Origin: Pomacea canaliculata
Taxonomy: Eukaryota; Mollusca; Gastropoda; Architaenioglossa; Ampullariidae
Reading direction: 5' to 3'
NCBI RefSeq assembly: GCF_003073045.1
Contig: NC_037596.1
Coordinates: forward strand, 8,327,416 to 8,391,415
Length of the DNA stretch: 64,000 bases
Under the pieces are notes generated by a model. The model had not been told where the DNA came from, ran no database searches, and saw only the letters and a list, made by a program, of their open reading frames with translations. Position numbers and translations under genes: made by a program. Shown here piece after piece: positions 14,173-53,400 of the stretch (its first letter is position 1; each line of letters starts with the position of its first letter).

Positions 14173-14291
14173 TTATATCACTGTTCTTTGTGTTCTGTGT
14201 TGTTGTTTTGCTTTGACCGGCTTTTTTATCATGGCGAATGTCAAGTTTTCATAAATTTCACCCAGGGAAGAAGGTGCGGTAGATTTCTGAG
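14173..14291 (-). CDS. Gene B terminal tail exon with a YENL motif
   Basis: After the acceptor CCTATTTTCAG, phase-1 reading gives QKSTAPSSLGEIYENLTFAM and then a basic stretch ending at TAA. YENL fits a YxN SH2-type docking pattern and corresponds to YQNV in the terminal exons of D, E and F. The exon was found from splice signals and phase, not from a long open frame. Confidence 0.55.
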
Positions 14292-14803
14292 CTGAAAATA
14301 GGAAAAAAAAATAAAATAAGCAGAATGAAGTTGATGTAGCAATAAAAAGATATTGGAGACAATGTTGTGACAGCTTTAAAATGATGGATGGTATTTACTT
14401 CATGAGAAACTCTAATGACACCATTTAAACTACGAAATATTTGAGTTATATTTTGCATTCAAGAACAAAAAAAGGATAGCACGATTTTTTAAAATTCCAC
14501 GAGACTAATTTATGAAGAGAAGCGATGGCCATGTATTAATTGGGACATATCTGTATTTATATCTAGATTGTCACATTTGTTAGGATGGGACGAATGTACG
14601 ATGTATTTCTAGAACCTAGGAACCAGTGTTTCTACAATTTTGTTTATTGTGCTAAGTACAAGTCATCTAGAGACAAAAATTTTGAATTCTTCTCGATCTT
14701 TAAAGAAAAGCAAAATGATTATGCTCAATAATAGCAGTGAATGTGAACAGCTGTTATTACTTTTTTCTTGTTACATACACTGTAAATATAGAGGAAAACT
14801 TAC

Positions 14804-14899
14804 ATTTGTCAGTAGGAGTATCAGGACCTGCTCTCATCGTGTCGTATGCGTTATTCATACTCAGACCTGCGTCCTGACTGGGTTTGTCGTACATTTGGT
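14804..14899 (-). CDS. Gene B first tail exon with a YDTM motif
   Basis: A 96-nt phase 1-1 exon with acceptor TTTAAG and donor GTAAGT. It encodes QMYDKPSQDAGLSMNNAYDT then MRAGPDTPTDK. The length equals the first tail exon of D and E (96 nt each). The tyrosine of YDTM has 13 residues after it in the exon, the same as YAGL in D and E. YxxM is the classic PI3-kinase SH2 docking pattern. Confidence 0.6.
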
Positions 14900-15218
14900 C
14901 TTAAATGAAGAAACAAAATATATTATTCGTAGTAAAGGGATTGAACTCTTGTGGTTTGTATTCCTTTAACATCATAAAATAAAGCATTCATTCACAATGA
15001 CTAACTACTCATCCTAACTACCCACGTCCATTTTTTTTAAATACTAGTTTGAATTTCTACAGACAGTGACATATAAGCTACATGCTAGGATGTTAGTTAT
15101 TTCTACACTACAAACACACAAGAAAAATAAAGTAAAAAAAAAAAGGACGTACATTTTTATAACGCTAAACTGACTCAATTTGTCTTTTAATTAAGAAGCT
15201 TGTATTAATATGTCATTA

Positions 15219-15220
<2 letters not shown>

Positions 15221-15284
<64 letters not shown>
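15221..15284. repeat. (ATT)n microsatellite at the A/B duplication border
   Basis: About 21 ATT units. Homology with block A (from 1,507) starts directly at the right side of this repeat. Confidence 0.9.
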
Positions 15285-17621
15285 GCATTGAAAACTATTG
15301 TTCCTTTGCCTAACGAGCTCAATCAAACTAGATGCCGGTCAAGGGACGACTGACTGATATAAATCTGCTTTATTAATCATCATCATCATAATCATCATTA
15401 TCTAACATTGCTAGATTATATGATAGCTGCATATTCTGACAACTGTTACATTACCTCTCTGAAATCGTCGACTTCTCCAGATAACAACCACCACCACCAC
15501 ACCTACCACCAGTATTTCTATGGTCAGGGTAACGCCTATACCAGTGCCCACACCTTTACTCATGGAGTTCCCATTGGTCTTCACACCCTGTCAGCATCAA
15601 ACAAGAATAGGATACAGTTACTTCAGTCTTAAGCAGTTTTTAATCATACGCTTTTACACATTAGTCCTGATAAACATCCTTTTGTTTACTTTACCACGAC
15701 GAGGTGTCTAACATTGACCTGACCTCACCTGACAACGTCAGTGTGACAATGGCGCTGGCTGTGTGTCTTGGTTGACATGATTGGTGACAGTGCACGTCAC
15801 TTCTTCCCGTCATCCTCTTCTTTGTCGACTATGATGACACACCTGGAGCCCTGTTGGTCTTTACACATCCCGTTCCCACGTAAACATGTCACAGGTCGAG
15901 GGCTTGACCCCAGGTGCCTCACAGGTAAGGATCACGAGGCACTTGCCAGGTGTAGAAATAGTGTGGTACTGGATGTTTATGTGGACCTTATCTGGTCCAT
16001 CTGAAAAGTATTTGTCGTACAGATCCTTGGGATCTTTTTAGGTTTTCCTGCTACCGTAAACTTAAACTCTAGTTATCTAATTTTCGTACTTTCGTATTTG
16101 AAAAGAGTTTTTATCTACTTGGGCAGTAAAATCCAAATCAGTGAAAAATAAAAACCGTTACTTTGGTAGGATCAAGATGCAAACGCCTTCGCCTGACCTG
16201 AAACGTTGAGGATGATGCTGGTGTTGGCTTTGTGGTCGTTGTTAACGTTGTTGATGACTGAGCACGTGACCTCCTTCCCGTCATCCTTTTTACCTTTGAA
16301 GGTAAGTTTACAATGAAAACCTCGCTGACCGTAGCACAGGCCGCCCCACGTGACCATTTCTGACTTCAAGGGCTGGACATTCCTTGCCTCGCATACCAGG
16401 GTTACATTGGATGTGTCGTCTGGAGGTAAGTAGACATGGCCTCTGGTCGCCGGGTAGGAAGCAAGGAATGTCTCGTAGCTATTGTCTTTTCGAAAAAGAA
16501 TAATGTAGGGCTTAATGACCACGTCATCCGGTCCATCTGAAAATGTCACAGGCAAAGATCAGAAATATTTCTCTTCAAACGTGTGAACATTTACTTTTTC
16601 AAACGATTGATTTTATTGAAAACTACAATAAATGTGTCATAATTTATGCTTCCTTCTGTTGTAAAAAGTTTTCTGTTGTTTTAATTTCTGCCTTTACCGT
16701 TCGATCGTTGTGTTAATCTAAAGGCTAGCTGTGTCATCGGAACAGAAAGTAATTTTATAAATATTGTCATAAAAACGCTCACTTTTGTGTGTTTACATCA
16801 ACAGTTTCTTTCCTTTTTTGGGTCACTCCATGTTTCTGTTGCTTCTTGCAAACTGTGATCCTTAACAGTGACATCATCAATTTCTTTCATCTTGCTGTAC
16901 TTACAGGTGAATAACTATCAGTTAAATTAAATAAACAGTATCTCATTTACTAATATAAGTTTGTAAGGGACTGTCCTGCACAAGTAATAATTTTTGTCTT
17001 CGTACTCACACGCCACCGTTATATTTATCTCTGAACGTTTATCGTAAAGCCATTCCACTTCACACACGAGTTTTTCCCCTTGGTGGCTGCGGTTAATGAT
17101 GTCGGACGGAAGCGGAAGTTGTTTGACGCCGTAGTCACCGGAAGTTAGAACTCGTTCTCCTACACGCCAGTCAGTCTGCCCTCCGGGTTCCCTAGACTCT
17201 GGGTGTTACAGCTGCATCTGAAGGGACCCTCCTCGGGAATGTAGGTAAGGTCACAAACTATTTGTGGCGTGGATGACTCTTTGACCTCTGAGAAAGAGCA
17301 CTTAAGCGAATTAATTTGCTTCAAATACAAAATCATGTTAATCTTGACATAATAATAACAGATTAGCTTCAAACCTGTAAATGATTAACGGAAATAAACT
17401 TGAAAAAGGTTGCACTGCCCAAGATTATTTCGTGGACTTACATGCTGTCCATGCCATCAGTCCCCCAGCTATCAACATAAGTATTCCACCAACCAATCCG
17501 CTGGTCTTTTAATACGTGGCAGAAGTAGTAAAAGGAAAAATCTTTTAGTAGAAGTAATGAGAATGAAATTTTTTTTTTAATTTATTTTTTTTCCTTTGAA
17601 ACTTTGAGATCGAGGTAAGAG

Positions 17622-17626
<5 letters not shown>

Positions 17627-17682
<56 letters not shown>
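17627..17682. repeat. (ATT)n microsatellite in a gene B intron
   Basis: About 18 units. The matching place in gene A (about 6,793-6,805) has only a short TTATTAT, so this expanded after the duplication. Confidence 0.85.
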
Positions 17683-17683
<1 letters not shown>

Positions 17684-20674: not shown

Positions 20675-20738
<64 letters not shown>

Positions 20739-20756
20739 GTCGTCGTCGTCGTCGTC
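20675..20756. repeat. (CAT)n(CGT)n microsatellite
   Basis: About 21 CAT units followed by six CGT units upstream of gene B. Confidence 0.9.
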
Positions 20757-21399
20757 CCTTTAACTGGGGCTGGCGGACTTGGACTTTAATACACACACTG
20801 CACAGGGTCTTGTTTACAACTCTTACAGACAACGATCAGTTTTTCACATTTCATTGGAAATCCACCGGTGGAAAAAAAAGCCCACGCACATGGGATAAAT
20901 TGCATACATAGCTGTGTGTGTGTTTTGGATACGTAAATAATGGACGGAAACCACAATACTGTTTTAGTGTACTACCTTTGTGTTTTGTTCACCTGCGCAA
21001 GCGTATCAAGTGTAAGGGAAAAGGTCAAAGGTAGGTCACGCCTAGTTGCGTCAGGAAGCTTTTGACAAACGGATTTTCCTTCCAACATAAAATAGTTGAT
21101 TAATTCCGTAGATTTATTAACCCAAGTTTAAAAGAGACAATTCAGTGACATTTTCCTTGAACGGGAAGCATCGTAAGTCTGTCTATTGTATCAGCTACTT
21201 AATACACACCAGCAGACACACGTGTATTACAAGCAGAGAAATATTTCTGTCGGTTGTTTTTGTCGGTAACTTTAGCTGACTGAGTTCATAAGCTTCCAAA
21301 GCATTTTATGCCAGATTTTAGTTTTATTTTATGTGCATGTAGAATTTATTACTTATAGTCACACTGAAACTGAAAAAAACTGTTCATAATGCATTGAAT

Positions 21400-23590: not shown

Positions 23591-23594
23591 CATC

Positions 23595-26500
23595 TTATGA
23601 TAAGGAGCTCACTTCCAACTTCTTCAGCATCCGCTCCTCCTCGGCACGGCGCCACTTCTCTAGCAACAGGTTTAAAGTGTAGAGAAAAGGATTCAAAGCA
23701 GAGTTGAGTGGCAACACAAAGATGACCATAGCCACACTAACTTCACTAGGAACAGGAATTCCTAAAGCAGCCATGATGCTGACCATTCCTACTGGAAACC
23801 AACACAGAAAGTCCGACACCACCACCGTGGCCAGGCGGCGAGCTATGATGATATCGTTGGATTTCTTGGTCGAGTTTACCTTCATAGAGTTCACTCGCAC
23901 TGACCAGTAAATACAGATCTGACCAGCTGCTATAAACACAAACAAACCATGTTAAAGATGATCATAACACCGAAAGAATAACTACGACCTTTGAAGTTTT
24001 TTCGTAATATCGGAAGCGGGATACAGATACCGTTTTGACTATAAAACTCCCAGTGAGAAAGAAAAGGCAACAAAGGAACAGCTGCTAGGAGTAAAGCCCA
24101 CAGCCCAGCCAGTCCACACGCCACGAGGCTGACCAGGGCTCAAACCGGAATTTACTGAAACGGAAATCGGAGAACGAGAAAACGGTCGAGAGTTATGAGA
24201 CAGATGATCAAAGCCGACACCTCGCTGGACATGAAGGACAAGAAGCCGGCCACGTTGCACGTCCTGCTGACTTTCCACTGAATGTCGTGCCATAGGTAAA
24301 TGGAGCGGTAGGTCTCGTCTGCTACACCCAGTATGGCTAGATACACTCCCATAAAGAAGTCAGCTATACTCAGGTTGGTAACAAACACATTGAAACCTGA
24401 AACCGAAAAGTTCTTCTGGAGAAGCTGTCTCAAGAGAAAGCCGCCAGCGTTACCCGTAATGGACAAAACACAGAACATCCACAGGAACACGCGGTAGACA
24501 TCTGATCGCAACAGGTCATCGCACGATGAAATTTCATCAGCTGGAGCGAAACATGATCCGCTTTCAAACGAGTCCGGGAGGTTCTGAGAACAACATAGTT
24601 TATAATTATCAGAATAAACAGCGCGGAGATATCGTGATGTCTTGAGAATATTTCGAGGAAATACCTCCAAGTGGGTTATTTCTCATGTCTAACGTGTTCA
24701 GGTTTGGTAGGTAGATGAAACCGTTATCTGTTATCGTTGCAATCTGATTGTACGAAATGTTCAGAACTTTAATACTCGAAAAATTAAGAAACGCTTTACT
24801 GTCCAATACTGTTATCGACATGCGAGTGATATCCACAGTTTCAAGATTTTTGTGTAAATAAGGAAAACCGCCATTCAACAAATTAACAAGAGGATTTCCA
24901 GCTAACCGCAACTCTTTTAAGTTAATTAATAACGAGAATGAGGTAAGGTCAAAGGTAGTTATATAATTATCACTAAGATCTAGGGTCCGGAGGTTTTGTA
25001 GATGAACTGATATCACAGAAGTCAGTCTACAGAAAGCTAGACTCAACCAAACAAGATATAAGTTAGAAGAAACGTCTGTCAGAGTCATACCTGAATGTCT
25101 ACCGTCTAGGTAACGCAAGTTCGAGAAAATTTTGTGTCGGAAATGGTTCTGTTACAGATGAATTGCCAGTCCTTGACAAACACATTCATGAGGACAGTGA
25201 AGTCCACAGAAAGTCTCATCGTCGTGTTGCGGACACTGTGGCCAGCCGTCACACACGTTGTCGCCATGGACACAAACACGTGACCCACGACAACGATAGA
25301 AGCCCGGACAGGTGTATCGCTGACAGTCCTCCTCGTCCTCGTGGGAGGGACAGTCGTACACACCGTTACACCGCACGTACACAGGCAGACAGTAAGCCGA
25401 CTCACCTGCACACCGGAAGTGCGTTTGTGGACATGACTCAGAAGTTTCGAGAGGTACTTGGTAAAAATCACCTTGACCATCAAAAAAAATTATCGACGGA
25501 GGGAAAAGTCGTGTCTTTTCCGGATACTTATAAAAATAAGAATATGTACAATCCTCGTCTGATTTGTCCCAGCAATCTGCATACATATCACAAAAGTTAT
25601 TATAGAGAATGCACTGTCCACTACGACAGGTAAACTCTGGACAGGTATGTTGGTGTTCACACAAGTTCTCGTCAGATCCATCGAGACAATCCTGCCTGAA
25701 ATCACAAACCAAACTATAAGGCAGAGTGGCGAGATGGTCGTCACAAGTAAACATTTGTGTTGTGATGGAAATGTCCAAGTCACTGACAGTTTGACAATAC
25801 AACGGAAGGCCAATTGCTCCACATGCGGTCTTTGGGTCACATGATAAAAGGAGTGCGTCACGTGACCTGAACGACAGTAGGAGACAGATATGTTCGTATT
25901 GTTCCAAAGGAATAAACTGTGATGCTGGAGACATGCAGGAAGCTGGCTGAGTCTGTGTTTTGAGTAGAGCATCATATTCACACACAACTCTCTTAGCATC
26001 AGATGAAGCACATTCTTTCAACAGTACTCGCAGAGGGCTGGACGTAGTCATAGAAACCACAAACTTTTCTCAAAAGATCTTCACGAAAAAGTTGCGTTGT
26101 GTTGGTTTCGTAAGAGATGGTGTTATCAGCCCACTGGAATGTGTATCTGTAATACTTTGGCCAGTTCGCTTTAGACATTCTCAAGCCGATCAAAACCCTC
26201 TGGTGATTTTTTCCATATTCAAACAGTTTTGAGAAAGCTTTCCATTCTTCATCAGATTTCATGCTAGCTACGTTTCCCCCATGCTTTTCACATTCATCAT
26301 CTAAGATGTCCAATGAAAGAGATTTTGCTTCAATATATATGTAACATTTGTTACCAACGCGACTGATCCATTACAGGCGGGACGGCTGTAGGGACAATGA
26401 GGACCCTCGTCCTCTCCTCCTTGGCACTCCTGCTCCAGGTTGCACTCCAGGTGTTCTTTGAATGCGTGGTAATATTGCACGGAACAATCCCACAGACCGC

Positions 26501-27424
26501 TGTCCAAACGCCTGGGGGCTTGGAATGAAGGATGGAACGAGAAAAGCATTTTGATGCCAATACCAGCATTGAGCATTTCATCATAGTTCAGAAGAATATT
26601 TGTTACAACGCTTGTGGGACTCTTGTGTTGGAGAAGAAGAGTTTCCCGAAGGATCTCAGGTTCCGTTTCTATAGTTTTGTATATGTCTAACTTATTGAAA
26701 GGTTCCTCAACGGTCAATAAATCCAAACGCAGTTCTGAAAAACTGACCATCGTCACGTGACCAGCTGGGGCAGTAATTTCCCGGGAGGTTTTAGTTCCGC
26801 AAGGATACTGCTCGCCATCTTCAAAGTTGTATGAAGTCACGAAGCCTGAGTTAGGGGATGTAAAGACTATGGGAGAACTTTGTACAAGGTGCTGTCCTCC
26901 ACTGCTTCAAAATGAACTTGAAACTTCAGCGAGAGGGATGGGTCCTTCAGACTGTCGTACAAGATGAATGTTTGCATGTTGTCATCACTTAATTGCAATG
27001 GACTTGCCTCTCTTGATGGCTGAACACCTGTACTCAACCTTGGCACAGACTGTGGAGTTATTTATGGTTGTTACCATGGCATCGACCAAACAGGGATCCC
27101 TGGGGAATAGGACATAGCTTGAGACACTATAGCCAGATGGTACTAGGACAGACCACACGCACTCAGAGACCGATCTGGAAAGGTTTTCTCCTCCTGCGAT
27201 TCCGTAGATCGCTCCTCTTCGACTGGAGATACGAAATTTTTTATGACTGTACCCGCATTCATTGATGTTGAGATGAAATTCCTCTAGTTCACCCGTTCTT
27301 GTAGTAGTTGTTGTAAAATTCTCAAAAGGATAGCATGAATTACTCAGTAAAGCATTAATACCGCCAATAATTCTATCATATATTGTAATACTTGTGAATG
27401 ATAATATGCTTGCTTCCCACGCCT
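23595..27424 (-). pseudogene. GRL101-like receptor 1: CUB-CUB-lectin-LDLa-LRR-7TM, frame-broken
   Basis: Read from high to low coordinate, the minus strand gives: CUB-like 1 (about 27,263-26,875, ECGYSHKKF...ECVWSVLVPSGY), CUB-like 2 (26,870-26,530, DGEQYPCG...ILLNYDE), a cysteine-rich linker (GLWDCSVQYY...GEDEGPHCPY), a C-type lectin-like domain (26,340-26,030), at least three LDLa-like repeats (25,790-25,190, DCLDGSDENLCE, DCWDKSDEDC), leucine-rich repeats (25,050-24,660, LRTLDLSDNYI), then seven helices with LDRFLVLRF after helix 3 and NPFLYT in helix 7. No introns interrupt it. The frame changes near 27,005, 26,870, 26,365, 26,030, 25,135, 25,110, 24,665, 24,150 and 23,945, so it is probably a pseudogene. 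The domain order matches GRL101-type molluscan glycoprotein-hormone-like receptors. The true 5' end is uncertain; a possible acceptor lies at about 27,424. Confidence 0.8.
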
Positions 27425-27429
27425 AAGGC

Positions 27430-29000
27430 AGAAGGAGAAAGTCATTATGAATGTTCGTCTGACTCAAACAGGACAGGCTCCAGTCATCAGTTACTTGGCA
27501 GTTTGTTAGGTTTATATACCACTCTTTATTTCAACCAAACCAATAGTTTCTATACTCGTTTCAGAAAAACAGATAATGATGGTACCAGTAAAAAAAAAAG
27601 TATACAACATTTTTTAGTTTTAATCTTTTTCTTTAGCGAGATATTTCAAACGGAAGCAACTTTTATCTGAGGTAACCATAATAAAAACCATTTCGTTGGA
27701 TTGGCCTGGATAAAGATTAAATTTCTGACGCAAGGAAAACATCAGTGTTTACCTTTTCAATCCCAGTCTGCAGTGCTTACGATCATTATTACCTATCCAG
27801 TTAGATTACTGTTTGAGGCAACCATCTTGGTCAAAATCCTGAAGTAATTTTTGCTTTTTTCAAAAGTGCAAAATGTCTACAACGAATTATAGAAATGTTT
27901 CATAAAAATATACCCGTAAAATATTACTTTTAGTAACATTTTAGGCCTAGTACCGACGATGTCCGGTCGCATCACTGTGAAATCTTGTTTGATATTTTAT
28001 TTTCATTTTTCGGGATATAAGGTATATTCCTGAAGACTAGCGGGCCTTTAATTTATTATCAAAGAGATATTAGTAACAAGTCCACAACCGAAATTCGGAA
28101 CGCAAACATCTTATGCGATAAAAGTCTCCCAGGCTGAGAATCGTACCACAGCCTCCTAACTCAGCCTCATAGGAGACCGGATGTCTGCAGCAAGTCGCAC
28201 TGGCGACATCTCGTGAGACACACAGATATCACTTACACGGTGAGCGCTGAAATAAATGTCAGCCAGCAAGTTGTCAGAGCTTGTATTTATTTCAGTTGGC
28301 CGACTGTCAACGGGCACGCCCAGTGCAATAATTCATTTGTTAAAACCGCTTCAATTTTTTAAAAGAATGAAGCAAAAGATAAATCACTGCTGACAGCAAT
28401 GTGGAGTACAATTTCAAGTCGACTCGCGATTCTCTTCTGGATTACAATATCTTTCATATCCATCCATAAGAAAATATCCGAGCATGCTTTTAGTGATTTA
28501 CTGAATATTTTTTTTATTACATCTTCTTCTAAACTTTTCTATACAACTTTTATCAACTTCCTTTGGTTTGTTGAATTTTTTTCTCCTCGTGTATTGCACT
28601 TGATGATTAAACACCACGATTGTCTTAATCTTTTGCAGTCACCTTATGTACTAATGCCATCTTCGTAAAAATATTTGAACAGTAAAATTTCATGTTACGT
28701 ATCCAACTTTATCTTTTTCAGTATATTTGGTTCTAAATATTTCCATCTTTGTCGTTTCCCTCTCAGTTCTAAATTAAAATCAAAATTAACTCATCAGTTA
28801 AAAATGTCTAAATTATGTCCAGACCTATTTTTGTACCTTCTGTGTAAATACATTTGCAGTACATCGCATAAAAGAAGGTGATAAACATATAGGCAGACAA
28901 ACTCATTGTTCTTACCTGTCTCTCGTCCCTTGGATGCTGTCTTCATTCATAAAGTAAGGTTTGTTACAAACGGGCATAACTCACGAACACTTCGCCAAAT
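27430..29000. other. Spacer between the two divergent GRL101-like loci
   Basis: No coding domain is recognised. It contains an inverted repeat of CTGAAATAAAT (28,247-28,257) and ATTTATTTCAG (28,285-28,295). Promoters for both loci would have to lie here if they are transcribed. Confidence 0.4.
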
Positions 29001-29003
29001 AAA

Positions 29004-32000: not shown

Positions 32001-33009
32001 CGTCAGCTACTACGTCCTTTGTTGCAAAGAATTTTTGCCGGATGTGAAAACTTACTTTGCTTTTCAATCCCAGACAGCTTTTCTTCTTGTCAGAACCTCC
32101 TCCGCTCAAAATCTCTCTTTGTTGTTCTCTGGATTTTGTGTGTCGCTTCCTTCGTAGGAAACGTGTGTAGCATTTGTTACACGATCTTTCTTGAGACAGA
32201 AAACCTTGGCCATGCATTCGGTCTTTGATGATAAATTTAAATGTCTCAGACTTCGCTATGGGCATCTATTTGCTTGTGATTGGAACCGCAGATCAGGTGT
32301 ATGGAGATCGTTACCTGTGGCACGAACAGTCATGGACAGGCGGGTATGTGTGTCAGATGGCCGGCCTTCTGTACTTGACATCTACCCAGGTGTCTGTATT
32401 TACTCTGCTTCTGTTGACGATAGAGCGTGTATTTGTGATCAGGCTTCGTGTTTATATTTTCCAAAACTGTTTGCTACCTATTGTTTGTTGTTGCACCTGG
32501 GTTTCGGTCTTGTTCTCTCTGTTCTCCCGCTCTTTCTATTCGTATACCTTGGGGATTTCTACAAACAGAACTCCATCTGTGCACCTTTATCTGTTTATAA
32601 GGCTGGCTTTACAGGCTGGCCCTATATGTTTGGTGTGATTATTCTCATGAACCTTGTCTTAATCTTGACGGCTGATGTATTCCACGTGAGTAGTGTGTGT
32701 AGTCTTCCAATATGTATCAGTCGAACCCACACGATAGACAAATCCTTGGCTCGCCGATTAAACCTGTTGCTAGTCACAAAAACCTTGTCCTGTTCACTCC
32801 TGACAGTGATAGGGATCTCCACCCACATGGAAAAGTCACATCCTCTTGACATCATCAGTAATCTGGCGTTCCTGGTAGGACCTCTGAATGTTTCTTTGAA
32901 CCCTGTCCTGTATGCCATCAGTATTCTTCGTGAGACGAGGGGAAAATCTCAGAGACTGCGCTTGCTGAAGGTTCTAGAAGCTCGTTCAAGAATTCTCAGA
33001 AAAAATTAA
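29004..33009 (+). pseudogene. GRL101-like receptor 2: signal-CUB-lectin-LDLa-LRR-7TM, frame-broken
   Basis: It starts with a signal-like peptide (LRCPLLVVILALCLWIANC). CUB-like parts follow (29,390-30,090), then the linker GLWDCSVPHYHTFKQHLECN and GEDEGPHCPF, and a C-type lectin-like domain (30,262-30,665, RGGNLANV, LLAWSDGTVAYDY). Next come LDLa repeats (30,890-31,420, DCFDGSDENFC, HFRCPPDGYC), leucine-rich repeats (31,560-31,850, LQTLDLSDNLI) and seven helices (32,100-32,960, LTIERVFVIRL, NPVLYA). The order equals the neighbouring inverted locus. The frame shifts near 29,660, 30,700, 30,885, 31,040, 31,275, 31,430, 31,845, 32,220 and 32,450. No introns are seen. The best reading is an intronless duplicate that has decayed. 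Confidence 0.8.
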
Positions 33010-34209: not shown

Positions 34210-34286
34210 TCATGTTCGAGGTCTTGGCACATTCTGGTAAGCATTGCCTGAAGAACCATAGTCACTTTCGTTGTTGCTCGAGTCAC
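34210..34286 (-). CDS. Gene D terminal tail exon with YQNV
   Basis: The acceptor CTTCTTGCAG is followed in phase 1 by DSSNNESDYGSSGNAYQNV, PRPRT and TGA. YQNV matches the last exon of E and F, and the tyrosine falls at residue 17 of the exon in all three. Confidence 0.65.
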
Positions 34287-37200
34287 CTGCAAGAAGTCAA
34301 TAAATTTGTTTTTCTACAAAGTTGTCAGAACAAGTCTTGTCTTGATAAACTCTACATTAATAATCCTGGCAAAATAATAAAGCTTTCAGTTTAAAAATAT
34401 TCTTCGTAATCAATAAAACGTATTTTGTTTCTTGGAATTTTATGTCTTTTTTTTTCATCAATGAAAGAATGTATAAAGTGTTTGATGTCTTGGTGTGAGG
34501 TCTGCTTGAAGCTACATACTCTGAGTTATCTCCCTTCCAGTTATCTGGAATAGTCCCGCGTAGTCATGTTCTGCAGAGTTGTGTTTCCTGGTGTTGTTAG
34601 ATTCTTTTCTTCCGGCTTAAAGGAAAAGAGAAACTCAAATGAAGTACACATAGAAGTACTAAAACACACACACACACACACACAGATAGGAACAGGAAGA
34701 GAATCAGCAATCGTCTGGTTTTGCCCTAATGGCAATAACCGTTTAAATTACTTTAAATCTTTTGCAACGCGATTTATTCTTGCGAAACAGTCACTCTTAT
34801 GGACAAATAAAATGTGTCCTATCAGCTTTAACATTTGAAAAGTTAGAAAGATGTTAATGTGTAGCCACCGAGTCAGCAACAGACGACATAACGGCGCGCT
34901 AGTCCACTCCTGTAGTCAGCCGCCAAAAACAGGAAATATTTATGTCGCCGGATGAGAGATCTACATCCACAACACTCGTTATCGACAAATGCCCATGACT
35001 GCTTGAAGTCGATAACGACTGTGATGACATATTTAAAATTACTTTTTCCATTGATTGATTGCACTAATTAAAAGTTGGATCGTTTGGAACTGGCGAACTT
35101 CATTTAGACAAGAAAGCATAGAAGCGTCCGACGAATTTTATTTTTGAATTAAATTCATTCAAATTAATCTAAAAATATATGATGAGTAAGTCTTAGATGT
35201 CGGTTGAAAAACACTTTTCTCACACATACCTGGTGAATGACGTCTGCGAATCCACACGACAGCGAGCACCAGACACACCGCCAGCACCAGAACACCAAGT
35301 GTGACGCCGACACTAGCGCCTACACTCCTCGCCAAGATGTCGCTCGCGGCCACACTACCTGTCACATGGCAGTGTATATCATCAATTAAAACATGGGTAA
35401 GAAACATGAAGTCTATGCTCATAGTTTTGATTGTCAAACTATTGTACAAAATTAATGTGTGGTCTAAGCTCTCTTCGAATTTTGAAGCAAACAAGAGTGT
35501 CGGGAAGTCGTTGGAACAAGATGGTCGTTGGAACAGGATGGAGTGTGTAAATGTATCAAGCACATACGATCCTTTCAAGCAAGAAGCAGAACGATGCAAA
35601 GGTAGGACCTGCAAAAGCTAAATCTTTAGGTTTTTTTTTTTCCTAGCCTACCTGTGACTGTGACCTTCTCGACAGCTCTGACGCTGCGTCCGTTATTAGC
35701 GTGATTGGTGACAGAGCACGTGACATCCTCAGCGTCGCAAGATTCAAACGTGCACACGACACCTCGCTGACCTTGACACTGACCGCCCCACTGTACCATG
35801 TCGTAGCTGAAAGGTCTTAGGTCATCCACGGTGCAGGTAGCAATAACCAAGCAGTGAATGGATCGCACCTGGAGACTGACTCTCTCAGGACCATCTGCAA
35901 AAGTCACGCAGGCACGTGTGTAGGTTATGACGTCTGTTGTCACGTGTGAAGCACTTTCTACTAGCCAAACATCTGATCTTACTATTAAATAATTATTTTA
36001 ACATGTGTGCATGCTTCCCTACTTTATCACAGCTTTTCAGATTTTTCTTAATCCTGCTATTGTACATTTTTGTGGTCTCTTCCTTCCTTCCATTCTTTGT
36101 CTTTCTTTCTTTCGTTCGTTCTTTCTTTCCTTTTTAACAACTCACACGCTACTTTGTCCGTCACAAACACGGACTGCTTGACCACCCAGTCCACCTGACA
36201 CGTGACTCGCATGCCATCGTGCGTCCGGTTGACGCTGTTTGTGGGAAACGGCAGCTGCGTGACGCCATATCCGCCAGAGACTATGACGTCATTTCCCGCG
36301 AGCCACTGCAGCCTGCCTGCCGGACTCCCCAGCGACACTGTGCTGCACATGCAGTCCACTGGCCCACTTCTGGGACATAGGTTAATGAGCAGTTTGTCTC
36401 TGGAGGTGACGGTTCTAGAATCTTTAATAAACCTGACGCAAACAAACGTTTAGACTGCATTAATAAATATCAAAATATTCAGAATATTTAAAACAGTTGA
36501 CAGTAAAAACATTTTTTATTTATCTCTTCATTTGTGCTTCATGTTAAGGTCTGCGATTGAAATATGACCTTCCTTCAATAGGTCATGTACGTATCTACAA
36601 CTACTCCTATGTCTATGTTAATTAAGCCATCGATGATGCCGACAATCTTCTACGTATTATAAATGTGCTCTTCATTAGACCCGTGTATGGTGTCCATGAT
36701 TAAACTTTGAATGGGACTTGTTTCAGAAGTGATGATATGACATTCATTCGCATACAACATGAGCGTCAGTTGTTAATTATTCATTTTAATTGTTATTCAT
36801 AAATGGGTCGGAACGTGCGAGCTAACGTACCACCTTTTTCAGGATAAAGTTTGAAGTAGTCCAGTGTGGGACGAAAAGCAGAGTGTAGTAATAGTCGCCT
36901 CTCTTGGATGGTAAGGACCACGAGGTGGTGACTGTCCCCCTGTGGTACTCAAGACCTGTAGTGGAGTTGGTGTACAATTCAAAGGACGGTTTGGACGCAA
37001 TTTCTATTGGTCCCACGTAGTACTGCTATGGAAAAATAACAAAAGTAATATTAGTAATCAGCAGATGATGATCATGATGGTGATTATGATTATTGTTGGG
37101 GTTTTTTTGTTAGCAGTATGTATTTTACACCAGAGGACTAATACAAGGTAATTTTAGTTATCACGTTCCACGTAGTAATAGGGAGAGCACGTGACTTTGT

Positions 37201-39492
37201 CTATAAGACAAGTTCTTGCATCATCATCACTGACTTCTTGTTGTGAATGTAGGCAGCAGACATATAAGTATGTGCTTACATTACAATAGATATTGCGGTC
37301 ATTGTAAGTCTGATGTTACGCAGTTCAATAAAATGAGATGATAAATATCTAAATGCCATGTATTGTTGCGCAGATACATGTAGTCACGTGCACACGTGTA
37401 TCTATTTACCATACACATATATGCATGCAGGTGCAAACATGCGAGAACAAATACAACCGACACAGAAATATGAATACTTAGGGGAATAAGTATAAGTACG
37501 TAGTTACAAGAGAGACAAAAAGGGGGTAAAGGGTAGACATTTGTTTTCACATCAGTTCTTACTTGATAGATATCAATGTTGACCTCGTTAATGAACATAC
37601 TATAGCGACTGAGGGAGGAGAACACCCTGGAAGTAACAACTTCAGCAGTGAACGTCCAGTTCTCAAGATTTATTGTCACGTTGACCTTGTCCACTTGAAG
37701 TGGGTCTGACAACAGAAGGCAATCATACTAATCATCACCAATCATCTAACTGCTTCCGACAACAGAAACCATAACGACGACTTCCCTGTGACCCTGTGAC
37801 CCTGTGACCCTGTGACTCCTATCAGAAAGTGAACGTTCTCTTTCGTCTGTGAGTGCGCACTCATGTAATATGTATTATTAATTTTTATCTATACCAGGAT
37901 GGCTACATTCACAGAACAACATATGATACCATGAAAAAGTGACCTTCCATGAAGCAGTGTGACAATGTTTCAATGCGGATGTTTCAGCATGTTAATGAAA
38001 TAATGAAACATAAAGGTAGATCTCTCTTACATGCGATGTCCTGGGTGCAGTTAGCGGACACTACGGTGCCGTTGCTGAAGACTTCTGAACAGACCAATGT
38101 ACCCGCCATGTCCCGGGTGGCGTTAAAGGTGATGGAGGTGTGAGATACAGCTGTGACTGCCTGGTGCTGGACTGTGCATGACGTGTCGTCACGCACGTGC
38201 CGAGGGACACCTGTTGTCCAGACAAGGTAGTAAGACTCCAACTGACGGAGGTATTTGGAGATAAGGAGTAACAGGAAGCCGAGCTTTTGGTCAGTTCTCT
38301 GAACGGGATGACACCATCACTGCTGCACGACATGGCGATACCTGTGACACAATCCATAGACAGGTGTCACAATCCACGGTGAAACTGTTTTACTGGGGGT
38401 GCTATCTCGATGCTCTCATCACTGACGTGTACAGAATACAAGTTAGTGTTCTTATCTCAGTATATAGATGTCAAGATGACGATGACAACATTGTGTAATC
38501 TTTGAGAACACGGGTACGAGATTCAGCTCAGCTCTGACAATAAGCATGAGCAAGCATCTACACAATACGAGCCCTCGATGCTTTGTTTACATTCGGGCGG
38601 CTGCACAAAATCCTCATCTTCCCTGAGCTCTGTGGTCTGAATTGCTCTGTAAACACTGACATTTTCCCGTTACGCCCTTCTTAACCGAAAAATGTCAACA
38701 AACATTTGATCAAGTTTGACAAAGTGTCTAGATAAGATTAAGACAAAACTGTGCCAGTAATTTCATTTTTGCAATTGAATTTAAATTAATAACTTATCAG
38801 CACTTGATGGCGGAGTAATAATAATTTTCAATATTAACAGTCCTGCAACAGGATGCTCGGGGTTTGTGCCGATTGCTACGAATCATAATTTCATCCGCCA
38901 TGTGTTCACCCAGAGTTTCTTTGTCTTTTTCTTTACAAACTCTCCTTAACAGTTGTAATCAAAATCAGGCAGATGAAATTACTGCTAAATAGCTGTTTTA
39001 TTTTGGACTAAATCTTTTCTAAGACTTCTAATGATGCTTTTACACCGAGCTTGAACTTTATCGTACAGACGCCATTTTTCTGAGGGACAAAGGATAGGAA
39101 AATTTACACACTTCTGTTAATTGTCATCCTAAGGGGTAGAACTCAGTTCAGATATTCTCCTGTAAACCCATGAAGGTATTTTCAGTCCATTTACATAAAT
39201 GTACAATAATTTGAACAGATTTCACACCGCTTATGTAACTTATTAAAATGTATTGTATACAACTTGTCTTCACTCAGATTATCTTCCAAGTTATGTTTGG
39301 TATGCGTGCGCATCGTTCTCAGCCAGCTAATTTTTTCTTTTGTTTTTACTGGAAAAATAAAATAAAATTGACATACTAGTGACTTCAGTGACAGTAATAT
39401 ATCTGTAAAGAACTTCTATACTTACTGTTCGCCCTTTGACACGTAATGAGTATCACAACTGCTGTCGTCACAATCCCAGGTACAAGCGCCAT
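34210..39492 (-). CDS. Gene D: four-Ig-domain receptor with tyrosine tail; two one-base frame breaks
   Basis: Exons: signal 39,426-39,492 (MALVPGIVTTAVVILITC), Ig1 38,031-38,341, Ig2a 37,563-37,705, Ig2b 36,831-37,025, Ig3 36,146-36,421, Ig4 35,652-35,894, transmembrane 35,230-35,358, tail 34,520-34,615 and 34,210-34,286. Ig1 and Ig3 are each one base short of the length their phases require. Two frames overlap near 38,185-38,205 (Ig1) and near 36,362-36,372 (Ig3), so both exons are shifted. All other exons are open. The membrane anchor is GVLVLAVCLVLAVVWIRRRH. The tail gives HDYAGLFQ and NAYQNVPRPRT before the stop. It may be a very young pseudogene, a null allele, or carry two base-call errors. 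Confidence 0.7.
34520..34615 (-). CDS. Gene D first tail exon with YAGL
   Basis: 96 nt, phase 1-1, acceptor TTTCCTTTAAG, donor GTATGT. It encodes GRKESNNTRKHNSAEHDYAG then LFQITGREITQ. The frame that is open across the acceptor is not the longest one, but it is the one conserved with E. Confidence 0.65.
34664..34684. repeat. (CA)n microsatellite
   Basis: About ten CA units in the intron between the D tail exons and its transmembrane exon. Confidence 0.85.
37786..37818. repeat. Four copies of CCTGTGAC
   Basis: A perfect 8-bp tandem repeat just upstream of the Ig2a exon of gene D, within the intron. Confidence 0.85.
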
Positions 39493-40565: not shown

Positions 40566-40566
40566 C

Positions 40567-46200: not shown

Positions 46201-49144
46201 CAGACGGTCCCGAAAGTGTGAGCATCCAGTTCAGGTCCGAAAACTGTCAGGTGATAATGACCTGCACTGTGGATGCCATCAAGCCATTTTTACCTGACAT
46301 GATACAGTGGGGAGGGCTGTGCCAGGGACAGAAAGGCGCTGAGTGCACCTTCAAAGCTAACGGCGCGGAGGATGACGGGAAAGTAGTCACGTGCACCGTC
46401 ACCAATGGCGCAAATAACGGGCGTGGAGCCAGCTCCAGTGTGAGGATCGCTGTCACAGGTAGACGTAGGTCAGAAATTATCAGGCAATAAAACTATAGAC
46501 AGAATACAGTTAGATGACACAATGACACAATATTTGTTTATAATACCGTACAGGATGTTCAACTACGGGAAACGGCTCCGGTACTGGCTACGTGTCAACT
46601 GTGATCAAAGGATCAGCGACGGGCAACGGTACAGGTGTGGGAGACGGCACAGGTAAAGGTGACGTCATGGCACCAAGCGACTCCACAGCCTACATCATAG
46701 GTATAGCTGTTGCCGCTGCCCTCGCTGTCATCTTCGGAATCAGTCTGCTTGTGGTAGTCGTCTGTATGTGCAGACACCGGGGTGCTGGTAGGTGAATGAA
46801 CATTCTTGTTTAATTGAAGAACATACTTTCGTAAATGAAAAATATTCTGACTGTCGGTTATCAGATTTCGTTAAAGTAAACAATAGCAGGTGCAAATATA
46901 AGGTAGTCAGCTCCAGCTGGCTTGGAAAGATGACCTGCACTTGCTGTTGGCAATTGTCCAGTATCTTATTGTTTAAGATAGTTAGTTAATGTTGAGGAGG
47001 ATTATTAGAAGTCTCGGGATAAGAAAGTTAAAGTTTTCATGTTTTATCTTTCAAAATTTTTATTAATGTGTTGTGCGGTGTGAATTTATTTTTTAGCAGA
47101 AGGGAACAGAGTTAGAACAGAAGATTCAAGGCAGACAACTGATCAACCACAAGATAATATGAGCTTATATCTGCATCCCTCGGTCTCACAACAGCCAAGG
47201 AGTCAGCAGCGTAAGTTCAATTCTCTGCAGTTCTCTTCTGGTCTTCAAATACAGACTGTCGACATCTGGTTGTTGGTCTTACGATACATTGATACATCTC
47301 TTAGGCTACACTACCTGCTTACTGAGTAGAACTACAAGCAAACACCCTCCACTACAGCATACCTTGCTATCACCTGCAACATTAAACTTTTGGTCGGAAT
47401 GTCTGGACTGGAGTGTGACACTGTTTTCTGAAAACTCTTTAAGAAATCTTGTGAGAAATATACTGCCTTTAGACAGAGGAAAAATGATGTATGTTAGCTT
47501 TATTTGAGGGTATGTATACCAAACTGGTATGTGTGGACAGTTTTCTGCATAATGCCCTGAAAATTAAGGATCACTCACACATTTTTTGTTGCTTTATGTA
47601 TTCTTTGCTTCTGTAACTGCAAGTTTTATTATACATGTGCTGTCGTAATGTTTTGAGATGAACAGATTTCTGCACACTGGAACTTGATACCAGTAAATGT
47701 AAATTTCTTTATGTATCTATTATGCATGAGTATACTTGCTTTGTGATTGTTAATATTCTTACCTTCCTGTATCGGTATTTGCTAGAGCTCAGCAGAATAA
47801 AGAATGTTGTGATTGTCATTGTTTTAGCCCCACAGCAGGACAATGATACCTGTCCGCCCGACGACAACCATCATTATGAATCCATTCACAGTAATGCACA
47901 TCATGATGAACTCAGAAGTAAGCCTACTGAGCTCTATCTTTTCTATAAATTTGTGAGTCTAGTGTATATTATTTAAGGTATACATCATTTGTATTCAGGT
48001 GTACAGAGAATGATGAATGTTTTTTTATTGCGGGTGATTTTCCATATTCAGACCAGTCTTCTCGCATCACTTCCGTAGAGAATGGATCATGTTCAAGCAT
48101 GACTACTTCTACAGCTAGACCTGACCTACAGTATGAACAACAAGGTGAGTCTCTGACCATCTGCCCAGACCAGTGTTATTTGTTTGAGCAGTTTTGCTGA
48201 TGACTGGAAATAAACCATTCATTCTGTAGCTGTGTTTATACTATAATAGCAGTAACATAATATACTACTTGTCTAGGACTATTTACATTTCTCCAACCTA
48301 TACAGCATAAGTTGTCTACCTACAGTATGTAGTTTTGTTTGTTTAAACACCTAAATTTCTTTAGTTCTTTGACTACGGAATTTCTTTTCTTGTCATCCAT
48401 AACTTGTCACTAGATTTAATTTCCTTTGGTACCTGATTTGATGAGCATCTGTGTGTGTGTGTGAGTGTGATACACCATAAAGGGTAAATGAGCGTAATTA
48501 TTAGGTTACACATTTACAACTAAACTGAGTGTGGCTATTAGCTCTAAAACTAAAAGGGTATTTCTCTTTTCACAGTGCACCCAAGTTTCCCTTCCTTTCA
48601 CAATCCTACTTTGAGTTAAAAGGATATCAAATGTTTTAGAGGCTGTTAGATACTCTATCTTCCCACCCTCTCAGGGATATTAAGATATTTATAAATTTTA
48701 GCTACTTTCCATGTCATGTATAACATTTATATATATATTTATACAAATATCCACGCATTAGCAAAATATAGAAATATGAACTAAGATACAAACATACCTT
48801 TTAGGCTAAAGGGAAAAACCTGAGTTAAAAATACTGGCCATAAGTTCACATTAAATATTATTAACTGTGTTATTTTAAAGATTAATGTAAACACGTCTTT
48901 TTAACCTTTTTTGTCGCCCATTTTGTCAACGCTCCCCACTTACATAACACAAACATCTCTCTTGGATAGGTAAGGCCCGTATATTGTCCCGTAAATCATT
49001 TTTTGATGTACACACTAAATGGCTGTTTTTATGTTTAGGGCGTCCCCCACCATTTCTACACCAGCAGAACGGTACAACTACCTCCACCTGGACCTAACTC
49101 ACCTCAGAGTGAGTATCCAGCCTCGGGTGCTACCATCTCAGTAG
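43252..49144 (+). CDS. Gene G: four-Ig-domain receptor with multi-tyrosine tail
   Basis: Exons: signal 43,252-43,321 (MALITEVTRLMLLLATLQR), Ig1 43,884-44,231, Ig2a 44,459-44,592, Ig2b 45,108-45,315, Ig3 45,688-45,975, Ig4 46,204-46,458, linker plus transmembrane 46,554-46,787, tail 47,097-47,210, 47,828-47,917, about 48,052-48,144, and a last exon ending at 49,144 (or 49,097, depending on the acceptor). Every exon length fits phase 1, or phase 0 within Ig2. The linker is Gly/Thr/Ser-rich (GNGTGVGDGTGKGD). The helix is AAALAVIFGISLLVVVVCMC. The tail contains YLHP, HHYESIH, QYEQQ and probably YNYLHL. It is the only family member on the plus strand. It lies divergent to D and tail-to-tail with E. 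All frames are open, so it is likely functional. Confidence 0.78.
47828..47917 (+). CDS. Gene G tail exon with YESI
   Basis: 90 nt, phase 1-1, acceptor TTGTTTTAG, donor GTAAGC. It encodes PQQDNDTCPPDDNHHYESIH then SNAHHDELR. The tyrosine is followed by exactly 13 residues to the exon end, as in B, D and E. Confidence 0.65.
49065..49144 (+). CDS. Gene G terminal exon, downstream acceptor, with YNYLHL
   Basis: The acceptor CATTTCTACACCAG has a good pyrimidine tract. Phase-1 reading gives ERYNYLHLDLTHLRVSIQPR, VLPSQ and TAG. The upstream acceptor at 49,038 would instead give a tyrosine-free end (RPPPFLHQQNGTTTSTWT, stop at 49,097). The downstream choice restores overlapping YxxL motifs like those of its paralogues. 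Confidence 0.5.
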
Positions 49145-49739
49145 AAGATATTTGTAGAGAGTGATGTCGCCTCGTCAAACTGGGAGGATGAGACAGAGCT
49201 CTTTGTATTGTTGTCTTCTCTGACATCTTCCTGTGTGTGACATGTGACTGAGTATGTTGTCTGACGGGCCTGTCATCGTGCGTGTGGAATGTGGCAACTC
49301 CTCCGTTTTGTTCCTTTTCGACATGCAGACTGGACGATCGGCAGAGTTCGGTGAGCTTCATGCCCGCTTGACCTTTGTTGATCAGTTGGATGTGCTGCTA
49401 GGAACTGTGTATTTGCTGTGGAGTGTATTCCTGCGCGTCTGACTTGTTTGATATTTGCCCTGCGGATTGCGTTCCTGTTGTGTGTAGACGCTAACCTTTG
49501 GCCTCGAGCACCGTCATTTTGTTCTGACGTCACATTCTCTTTACGTCACATTATTTTCACGTCACACCATCTGTCAGCTGTGACGCGCCTTCTGTTTGAC
49601 GATGAGATGCTATACACGCCATCTTTTATTGTCATATGACTTTGTGACAACAGTTGGCCTCTGGCGTTCAGTCGGACTTAGATTGCTTACAATATCTTTA
49701 TTTTATTCTTGATTGAACCAGAAACTACATCAATGGATA

Positions 49740-49745
49740 AATAAA
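49740..49745 (+). terminator. Polyadenylation signal AATAAA of gene G
   Basis: A canonical AATAAA about 600 bp after the gene G stop and before the convergent gene E, so it probably ends the G transcript. Confidence 0.55.
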
Positions 49746-50353
49746 GGTTTCAGGAGAAACGCATGACAATACTGGCCTTCTGTGTGTTGTTGTTTGCACG
49801 TTTTGTGTGTTTCAGTGAGTGACTTGGGTCATCGCCGACGAAAAAAAAAATGAAAGCCTTTAGTCGTCTGTACAGTCACATTTATATTATATACAACCAA
49901 TAGGCTTTAACACATTTAGTAATTTAAAGCTCTAAAGTTCTCAATTAGTTCTTTCTTTTCTTTCTCCATGATCTATGAAGGCGTGGTTGGTAGTTCGTGA
50001 CCAGAGGCAGATGGTGCAATGTTCCTTGTCGTGCCAACAACTCAGTCAAAGTCCTTTCGGCGCTAAATGGCGCCACTGCACCTGATGCGCCGAATCACAA
50101 TGTAAACTTGGATATATTTTTGGATAAATAGTAAAAAGAAATGAATTGAAAGAATACAGTGATACGGTGATTTAATGGGTTGGTCGAAAAATACAATGTT
50201 TTGCTGATCTTTTATCTTCTCTAGCTATCTTGGTCTGATATTCATACGTTAAAGGTGAGTGAACAATATATTTATACACAAAATCCAGACTACAGAAAAA
50301 TATGTTGTTATGTGTTGGTGTTGGATGAAACAATAATATATTTAAACATTAAC

Positions 50354-50424
50354 TTAAGGAAGTTGAACATTTTGATAGTAGCTAGTGTCAGAACCAGGGT
50401 GAGACGCGTTGTGTTCCGCATTAC
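50354..50424 (-). CDS. Gene E terminal tail exon with SYYQNV
   Basis: 71 nt after acceptor GTTTGCAG. Phase 1 gives NAEHNASHPGSDTSYYQNVQ, LP, then TAA. The same exon at 59,743-59,813 in F keeps GSDTSYYQNVQLP. Confidence 0.68.
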
Positions 50425-53400
50425 CTGCAAACATTAAGCAAAGATAAACGTTAAAAAAAATACATAACAAAACTATACATTAAGTAAGAAACAGCAATCT
50501 CAACAAGAATTCAAGGGGAACAACGTTAACCTACTTGTTTTCTCTGCAATCTCTGGAGTATAGTGCTGATAAAAAAAATACTCCATGGAAACAAATAAGT
50601 AAGAATACAGTTGACTCACTAAATGAATCTTTTCTTGAGACGAGTTTTTAAAATTCTGATAATTATTATATAGTGACAATTACTGTGAGTTGTCTCCCTT
50701 CCTGAGGTCTGGAATAGACCTGCGTAGTGATGCTCTTGGGAGTCTTTGTACCCGTCATCTGACTTTTGTTTAGGTCCACCTGAAACACGAAAGTGTCTCA
50801 CGTTTACAGGCTAGTTCAAGAGTGCAGAAAAATGTTCACCTAGCAGCAAAATCCTTGTTATATTATAATAATAATGAAAGATGTATTTCTTATATGTTTA
50901 TGACTTTAATGGCAATATACCTATTGATTAGCAATGACATTTTGATGCCATATTCTACACATATACCTATAATCTAACAAGAAAACTTCTTTTCTAAACA
51001 AATTTAATGTGCTAGACATAGAATTTTAAACATTAGTCTTTAGTTTAACGTAATAGTAATTACAACAGCTTTAGCAACGTAATATTGTAATTTTTAAATT
51101 TTGGTATGAAGGATTTTTGTAGCAGAAACAATGCTTTCGTAATGATACGTTGAAATGTAGTATTTGTGTAGAGATGTGGTTATTCAGACTCGAATACTGT
51201 AGATGGACACGTATTCTGTATCACCTACCTGTTGCACGACGTCTGCGAATCCACAGGACGACCAGCACCGAACACACCAGTAGCACCAACACACCAACGG
51301 TGACACCGACACTGGTGCCAACACTCTGCGCCATGGTGCTCCGCGCCATTTCGACAGAACAATCTACAGAAGAATCAGTATTTCATTTGGTTGCTATCTT
51401 TTGGAGTTTTAAAAGCTTGCTTAAAAGTTAAAATTATACATGAAAGACAACTGTTCGATGAATAAACAGAGATTAAGCAAAAACAAAAAAATGAAAATTA
51501 GCTAGAAAATAAGTTGTCTACAAACAATGTCTAAGAAACTAAATATAAGACATAGACTTGCTGGATTTTACAAAGAAATGCAATTTTAGATGTTCTGCCA
51601 ACAGACCTGAGACTGTGACCCTCGCAGTGGCACTGGCATTATGTCCGTTATTGGAGGGATTCGTGACCGTGCACGTGACCTCCTTCCCGTCATCCTCCGC
51701 GCCACGTGATCTAAACGTGCACACGGCACCTCGCTGACCTTGACACAGTCCACCCCACTGCATCATGCCAGGTGTGAAGGGTTTGATGTCGTCCACAGTG
51801 CAGGTCGCCGTGACCAAGCAGTTTTCAGACTCCACCTGAATGCTCACATCATTTGGACCATCTACAAAAGAACATTTTTGTTCTCCTTTAGAACGTCTTT
51901 AACTCTTCACAGAAGTAAATAGTCGGCATCAAATATTAGGTCAGAACTCTTTAAAGTGACTCTTGTCAGAAAGTTCAAGTTGAGAAACTAAATGTTATAA
52001 TCAGGAAATTATTGAGATTACGACGATACGTGATTGCGAACAGGTCTACATGCATTACGAAGACAAATAAAACGAAAGATTAAAGGAAATTTTTCAATGT
52101 GCCCTCATCTATAGTGACACTAAATGAGTTAAATAGTAAAATCAGGAGTGCTTTAGAATAAGAGTGTATTTATTTTTTAAATCTCAACGAGCTATTATTT
52201 TTACTGCTCGTCTGTATTAACTGCGTTTCTTTTGTTGCAAATGTTTTCGGACAATTAAGAGAGAAAACTATTCCCTGGATAGAAGCGTGGATTACTCACA
52301 CGCTACGTTGTCCGTCACAACCACGTGGTGCTTGACCACCCAGTTCAGCTGACACGTGACTTGCAGGCCATCATGCGTACGGTTTAAGCGATTTGTGGGA
52401 AACTGCAGCTGTGTGACGCCATCTTGGCCAGATGCTATGACGTCATTTCCTACAAGCCACATCAGTCGGCCGGGCGGCGTCCCAAGTGACGTAGTGCTGC
52501 ACTGACAGCTGATGGGACCCACTTCCGGTACATAGGTCAGGCGACAGTTTGTGCTGGGTGGCGAAGGCTCTGATATTTTAATGTAGCCTGATTGCATGGG
52601 ACATACCAAAAACAGTGTCACATATTTCAAACCAAAACATTTTTTACAAGTTGACAGTTCTAGCACTTTTGGTGGTTTGTTGATTTTACTTAGTACAGTA
52701 TACTTTATCGCTTTACTGAAAGTGTTAGATACAGATGCACTCGTCACAACTACCAGTATCGCTAATAACAACAGAATGTTTCCAACATCTTCAGCAGAAG
52801 GTCCCCTCAGTTAAAATTGCAAAATTCTATCTTGTACTTCTGGCTCTGCACGAATTTCAGTATGAACACCAACTCTGCAGTCAGCTCACAATATTTGTTC
52901 TTTAAATTGTTGGCAACGATGAATCAAAGGTAAAATTAATGCGACGATAAAAGGGTATGTTATATTCAGACCTTTTAAATAGAAGTTTGATTATTACCTG
53001 CTTACTGGGCAGCTCTTGTAGTGTACAAACGATCTCATAACTGAACTTTTCGAGGTTAATCACTGATGAAACACAACTTAAGATACCCTGTGCACGCTGT
53101 ACTTGTGGAAATCATCACACGCATCTTACAACTCATAAACGAACTATCTTACAGCTCGTTAACCGATACAAAACATGAACAGACTGACACGTGTCTTCTC
53201 ATTTTAGAAATCAAAGAACTAAATCAGCTCACGGAAACAATACTTTTTTCAGATTTCAAAAAATAAGACATCATAAGAACTACATCCCTAGCACAGCATC
53301 TCCAGAGTAGTAAAATGTAATCTAGTTGGCTTAAATCAGAGCCAGTCAGTAATATCCATTACTTCCACACAAGTGAGACTCATCCTTGAAAACCTGCGAT

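Follow-up and report, generated by a model that had tools for sequence, protein, structure and literature searches.

Tail tyrosines are conserved across a tandem array of predicted single-pass receptors with immunoglobulin (Ig)-like domains in the apple snail Pomacea canaliculata. The array lies on contig C7 of a genome of 440 Mb and 24 contigs, and part of it lies within the stretch of 64,000 nucleotides analysed here (the window; G000:C7:8327416-8391415). An earlier note on the window had reported a conserved two-tyrosine cytoplasmic tail, encoded in tiny exons, in five genes (B, D, E, F and G), and had read its motifs as docking sites for SH2 domains. The observation is partly confirmed; it is largely right, and stronger than the window alone showed. 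The interpretation is partly supported: conserved tyrosines in fast-changing tails suggest a signalling role for the array receptors, and we put at roughly one half the probability that these tails are SH2-docking and that the receptors would signal into the cell.

Exons were mapped over 174 kb joined around the window, and D3-type exons were used to mark copies. Fifteen receptor-like copies were found: six before the window (U1-U6), six lying at least partly inside it (A, B, D, G, E and F), and three downstream (H, I and J). Gene G is on the plus strand and the remaining 14 copies are on the minus strand. The ectodomain is built of four to five Ig-like domains with the fold of the immunoglobulin superfamily, and a structure model of paralogue I has a V-like Ig fold in D1. 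Grouped by sequence similarity rather than by a tree, the copies form two subfamilies: subfamily 1 (D, E, F, G, H, I and J), with a single D4 exon, and subfamily 2 (U1-U6, A and B), with two D4 exons except in U4, which has one.

Tyrosine motifs of the tail exons

The proximal tail exon (T1) can be read in 11 copies (U1, U3, U5, U6, A, B, D, E, F, H and I; B and F are counted despite broken upstream frames). In all 11 the tyrosine stands 13 residues before the last whole codon, the position earlier described for B, D, E and the YESI exon of G, where it also holds. The residues after the tyrosine are AGL in D, E and F, SGL in H and SCL in I; in subfamily 2 they are DTM (A, B), EMM (U3, U5), EMT (U1) and EMA (U6). 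Thus YAGL in D and E and YDTM in B are in the proximal exon as the note said, but YESI of G is in the second of four tail exons, and the proximal one carries SLYLHP. The exon length of 96 nt given for B, D and E is correct and is shared by A, H, U3 and U5; the others measure 90 nt (U1, U6), 81 nt (I) and 88 nt (F). Both tyrosines of the described tail are conserved across copies; however, subfamily 2 has a third one, in Y[D/E]KP (YDKP or YEKP), which is present in six of six.

Ten copies (U1, U5, U6, A, B, D, E, F, H and I) have a readable terminal tail exon (T2), and all of them carry Y-x-N in it, including the YQNV of D, E and F and the YENL of B that had been noted. Position +3 is V or L in all but H. 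The invariant T2 columns are few: G, Y and N (3 of 20) in subfamily 1, and S, Y, E and N (4 of 19) in subfamily 2. The remaining tail tyrosines are unconserved (GYKD in E, DYGS in D, CLYE in I). The distance between the proximal and distal tyrosines, measured in eight tails, is 30 residues in D, E, H and I, 29 in U1, U5 and U6, and 27 in A; the value for U5 is taken from splice sites, contrary to the NCBI model. In I the spacing stays at 30 although its T1 exon is shorter upstream. The tail exons are symmetric and of phase 1, and since T1 and T2 both start in this phase, T1 can be skipped with the frame kept. In-phase splicing of the tail, as proposed earlier, agrees with submitters' or NCBI models for E (the tail is present in the submitters' protein C0Q70_12261, P0003) and for the YESI exon of G; in D, T1 and T2 join in phase by splice sites alone. 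The tail of I is predicted to be disordered (predicted local distance difference test score, pLDDT, below 50 at residues 469-521).

The motif pYxN is the Grb2 SH2 consensus, and that of CrkII is pYxx(P/L), with proline preferred (PMC10279719). YxxM and YxNM are listed as PI3K/Grb2-type in PMC7226588, where consensus sequences are also tabulated for the immunoreceptor tyrosine-based inhibitory, switch and activation motifs (ITIM, ITSM and ITAM) and the immunoglobulin tail tyrosine (ITT)-like motif. YxN, present in each of the ten readable terminal exons, is what an ITT-like or Grb2-docking sequence calls for, and SH2 docking is a fair reading of it; the proximal half of the proposed fit is narrower, YxxL belonging to subfamily 1 and YxxM being retained in four of six copies of subfamily 2. 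The ITIM consensus, (S/I/V/L)xYxx(I/V/L), also given in PMC11460946, is matched by one of eight Pomacea tails: SYYQNV in E fits, as had been stated, and A, U1, U6, D, H, I and G do not. The tail of F was outside this whole-tail scan, but its terminal residues are identical to those of E and therefore fit. We thus rejected ITIM as a label for the whole set. ITAM (YxxI/L x6-12 YxxI/L; PMC7226588) was rejected because of the spacing of 27-30.

If the tails do signal, a ligand bound by the N-terminal domain would lead a Src-type kinase to phosphorylate the tail, and the distal pYxN, common to both subfamilies, would recruit a Grb2-type adaptor; the Pomacea genome has at least 46 matches to SH2 exons. 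The output would be determined by the proximal part of the tail. In subfamily 1 (G and J apart) the proximal site would be pYxxL, at a constant 30 residues from the distal tyrosine in each of four measured tails, and in subfamily 2 the sites would be YDxP-type, plus pYxxM in four of six, which may act as Crk- and PI3K-type sites. It is plausible from these motifs that the swap of YAGL for YDTM gives different signalling outputs among paralogues, as the note suggested, although its YDTM example, B, is a disrupted copy.

Constraint, copying and other readings of the tyrosines

When tails were shuffled, YxN appeared in 4-34% of them and the ITIM of E in 4%. A lone motif in a lone tail is therefore weak evidence, and the weight lies in conservation across copies; chance is ruled against at that level and not gene by gene. 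The codon-based comparison that had been proposed was made on four non-overlapping pairs (E-D, H-I, U1-U6, U5-A). Motif codons showed 0 non-synonymous and 3 synonymous changes, whereas the rest of the tail codons showed about 120 and 39 (Fisher p 0.017), and this supports constraint on the motif codons. The Y, L and N codons were those of the original finding, the YDKP codons were added post hoc, after the alignment had been inspected, and all three synonymous changes fall in subfamily 1.

Constraint on a tyrosine could also reflect trafficking. YxxPhi is the consensus of endocytic signals, and it is possible, though we hold it only tentatively, that the tyrosines are such sorting signals, binding AP-2 for endocytosis with or without SH2 docking. 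YAGL, YSGL, YSCL, YDTM, YEMM, YQNV, YENV and YENL all match YxxPhi, and D, E, I and A have two such motifs each, which occurred in 1.4-2.7% (D, E, I) and 7% (A) of shuffles and so are rarer than YxN in the same tails. However, YxxPhi requires neither the asparagine at +2, invariant in T2, nor Y[D/E]KP, and YEMT, YEMA and YHNT violate it yet retain the tyrosine.

Less probable still, in our view, is that the tail is neutral and its motifs are a residue of gene conversion and recent duplication. The pooled ratio of non-synonymous to synonymous rates (dN/dS) is 0.33 for T1 and 0.55 for T2 in subfamily 1, and 0.95 and 0.74 in subfamily 2; the whole tails are thus not tightly held, and the high values of subfamily 2 suit this explanation, as do the close pairs E-F and A-B, with little synonymous change. 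The T1 exons of U5 and A show 0 synonymous differences in 17 sites, where about a third was predicted from other exons (p 0.0012). Synonymous differences are absent among T1 of U5, A and B, whereas the other exons compared between U5 and A differ strongly; the introns flanking T1 are 76% and 82% identical between these two copies. Exchange may therefore lie behind the sameness of T1 in subfamily 2, or splicing constraint may help to hold it. In contrast, synonymous sites of the tail are strongly diverged or saturated in several pairs of subfamily 1 (dS about 0.8-2.3); these pairs still keep the motif residues, so that recent copying does not explain their match and is an unlikely cause of conservation there. 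Moreover, synonymous change without any non-synonymous change in the motif codons does not suit a neutral tail, nor does the loss of the tyrosine in the decayed T2 exons of U2 (VDEK) and U3 (LHEN). The T1-like stretch of U2 is frameshifted. Finally, that these are adhesion or self-recognition molecules with tails linked to the cytoskeleton through Crk or Grb2, rather than immune receptors, seems improbable to us: the multi-Ig ectodomain with its V-like first domain and the YxxP motif, Crk-type in adhesion scaffolds (PMC10279719), agree with it, but the present data separate it from immunity in neither direction, and the faster change of D1 between E and F suits both.

Several observations weigh against SH2-docking tails. 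B, D and F, three of the five genes originally reported, are disrupted in the present assembly: B and D have frame breaks in the ectodomain and T1 of F is frameshifted. The assembly consists of PacBio contigs with single-base errors corrected by Illumina reads (PMC6129957), and therefore some frame breaks may be errors. A scan of the tail of G found no YxN, the models of U4 and J lack a tyrosine tail, and NCBI model P0010 of U5 fuses its T1 exon with that of U3 and has no T2. YxxM is lost in two of six copies of subfamily 2, and +3 is T in the T2 exon of H. To these come the frequency of single motifs in shuffles, the fast change of the subfamily 2 tails and the possible exchange at their T1. 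In Littorina saxatilis, whose protein P0009 (33% identity) is the sole relative from another species for which a tail was found, the two tail tyrosines stand in other motifs (PLYGTP and TVYESS), and the tail scan found neither YxN nor YxxPhi.

Gene structures and neighbouring features

The exons assigned to individual genes are collected in Table 1. Gene B is disrupted by a frame change in D3 and by two in-frame stops in the second D4 exon. The tail of gene A is intact (YDKP, YDTM, YENL) and lies about 2.3-3.0 kb before base 1, outside the window. Gene A was not among the matches of the protein database search, and no database model of gene D was among the protein matches found. For T1 of gene F, NCBI model P0002 translates out of frame, and the submitters' model P0018 skips the exon and retains YQNV.

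Table 1. Exons of array genes, in window coordinates
Gene	Exon	Positions	Strand	Remarks
A	signal, D1, D2a, D2b, D3, D4a, D4b, transmembrane	1674..9368	-	splice sites only
B	terminal tail (T2)	14173..14291	-	EIYENL then stop
B	proximal tail (T1)	14804..14899	-	96 nt; MYDKP and AYDTM
B	transmembrane	15455..15587	-	out of phase with preceding exon, runs into stop
D	terminal tail (T2)	34210..34286	-	NAYQNV then stop
D	proximal tail (T1)	34520..34615	-	96 nt; HDYAGL
D	transmembrane	35230..35358	-	exon mapping
D	D1	38029..38342	-	frame change inside; matches 1-50 and 55-110 in different frames
G	transmembrane	46554..46787	+	boundaries from sequence; P0007
G	first tail	47100..47210	+	SLYLHP; boundaries from sequence; P0007
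G	second tail	47828..47917	+	HHYESI; sequence; P0007
G	third tail	48052..48144	+	LQYEQQ; boundaries from sequence; P0007
G	terminal	49039..49097	+	without tyrosine; boundaries from sequence; P0007
E	terminal tail (T2)	50354..50424	-	SYYQNV then stop; in P0003
E	proximal tail (T1)	50684..50779	-	96 nt, AG/GT, phase 1-1; HHYAGL; in P0003
E	transmembrane	51229..51363	-	exon mapping
E	D4	51607..51861	-	exon mapping
E	D3	52300..52587	-	Pfam ig above cut-off, residues 274-327
E	D2b	54396..54600	-	exon mapping
E	D2a	54839..54972	-	exon mapping
E	D1	55740..56066	-	V-like by model of paralogue I; most diverged exon in E vs F
E	signal peptide	57231..57300	-	ATG, GTAAGT donor, phase 1 end
F	terminal tail (T2)	59743..59813	-	SYYQNV then stop; in P0018
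F	proximal tail (T1)	60073..60160	-	88 nt (8 nt fewer than in E); contains YAGL, frameshifted

Between E (55738-56067) and F (64083-64412, outside the window) D1 differs by about 36 non-synonymous and 6 synonymous changes; the counts for the other exons compared, taken without D2b and T1, are 28 and 24 (p 0.0016 for the contrast). Positive selection on D1 was rejected, as D1 by itself is not significantly above neutral (p 0.24). At the population level, PMC11417965 covers 173 genomes.

In U4, about 26 kb before the window, the D4 donor is read through into a hydrophobic C-terminus, matching NCBI model P0014, and the product may be lipid-anchored. Copy J (85-88 kb in window coordinates, outside it; NCBI model P0006, isoform X2) has a transmembrane segment with charged residues and a short tyrosine-free tail. 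On the minus strand between A and B, two isolated exons (12089-12247 and 12524-12586), one D2b-like and one resembling a signal-peptide exon, are perhaps the remnant of a lost copy. Two other genes lie divergently inside the array: one at 23595-27422 (-), with matches to low-density lipoprotein (LDL)-receptor A repeats, leucine-rich repeats and a seven-transmembrane (7TM) domain, and one at 28980-33009 (+), which has leucine-rich repeats and, below the cut-off, a match to a C-type lectin. A 7TM gene with LDL-receptor A and leucine-rich repeats is among the hyperdiverse genes of Biomphalaria sudanica (PMC10875847).

The wider family and known receptor systems

A genome search with the D3 exon of G gave 72 matches at E <=0.01 among the best candidates scored, 17 in the array and 55 elsewhere. 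Fifty-three of these 55 are on C7 as well, where they range from 0.8 to 30.9 Mb and gather around 6.6-6.9, 9.75-10.3, 26.3-28.2 and 30.7-30.9 Mb. As C7 holds 7% of the bases, the binomial p is 1e-58, which exaggerates the significance because matches in local clusters are not independent; the weak matches may be other Ig-like genes. At about 21.111-21.1145 Mb (plus strand), a distant relative has small phase-1 tail exons after its transmembrane exon, as judged from splice signals only, with EIYENF, NVYENT, HIYDTT, TYEQH and HKYADL; if the last exon continues to its stop, SEYGEL, which fits the ITIM consensus, brings the tyrosines to six. A crude splice scan of relatives at C7 24.6 Mb, C4 34.07 Mb and C7 21.07 Mb (minus strand) found no clear tyrosine tail; two stray YEN matches were seen in the 24.6 Mb region. 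The relative P0016 terminates without a tail.

Together, these observations allow a broader, speculative proposal, to which we give limited credence: the array would be one station of a gastropod receptor complex confined to one chromosome, and the dozens of Ig-like genes of this complex on C7 would be assembled from phase-1 cassettes. Shuffling, skipping or loss of small tail exons, each with its tyrosine motif (YxN, YxxL, YxxM or YDxP), would then yield receptors that signal, are soluble or lack a tail, while their ectodomains are related. Tyrosine-tailed Ig receptors are a kind already known from vertebrates, Hydractinia and Botryllus (PMC12065747) and the oyster (PMC11999971). What is new, as far as the literature found shows, is a family of this kind in a gastropod, with tails of two types, and the spread of its D3 exon along one contig. 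Searches on apple snail, gastropod or mollusc ITIM, ITAM or immunoglobulin superfamily (IgSF) proteins, and on Pomacea tandem or immune receptors, showed no paper on the array family among those listed; six of its locus identifiers are named in no paper found, and the words ITIM, IgSF and transmembrane are absent from the apple-snail immunity review PMC9178244. Signalling from variable surface receptors is little known in molluscs, and an array with two tail types supplies exact tyrosines; in an invasive crop pest, the spread on one contig points to where recognition genes may be sought.

Like LAIR-1, CEACAM1 and TIGIT, the array genes encode Ig receptors with two tail tyrosines. The spacing of 27-30 matches the pairs of LAIR-1 (Y251/Y281, 30 apart) and CEACAM1 (Y459/Y486, 27 apart), and TIGIT has a YxN ITT-like motif (PMC7226588). 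Unlike in vertebrate ITIM receptors, however, the ITIM is found only in E and F, and the relationship seen is limited to the Ig fold. Among invertebrates, the gastropod VIgL proteins (FREP/CREP) share Ig-like domains, but the array receptors are membrane-bound, and no fibrinogen or lectin domain was among the 18 Pfam families matched at E 1 in nine members scanned. Oyster CgIgIT2 has five Ig domains, a transmembrane segment and a tyrosine-based tail motif (PMC11999971); it is called ITAM-bearing there and inhibitory in a title cited there, and the likeness is by description. By description, not sequence, the array also resembles the polymorphic transmembrane clusters PTC1 and PTC2 of the snail Biomphalaria, whose clustered genes encode single-pass transmembrane proteins (PMC10875847). 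The protein searches need shared 5-residue words, and two of them scored the best 7995 candidates; within this scope neither a Biomphalaria-named protein nor a homologue of Hydractinia Alr or of the Botryllus fester co-receptor (FcoR) was among the matches listed. Alr and FcoR are, like the array, clustered Ig-type receptors of invertebrates. The motifs in FcoR tails (ITIM, hemITAM or a core Y-x-x-I/L/V) vary among members, and such tail motifs are reported for Hydractinia Alr candidates (PMC12065747). If the proposal above is true, the receptor complex on C7 would parallel, in a mollusc, the paired-receptor loci of vertebrates and the FcoR locus of Botryllus.

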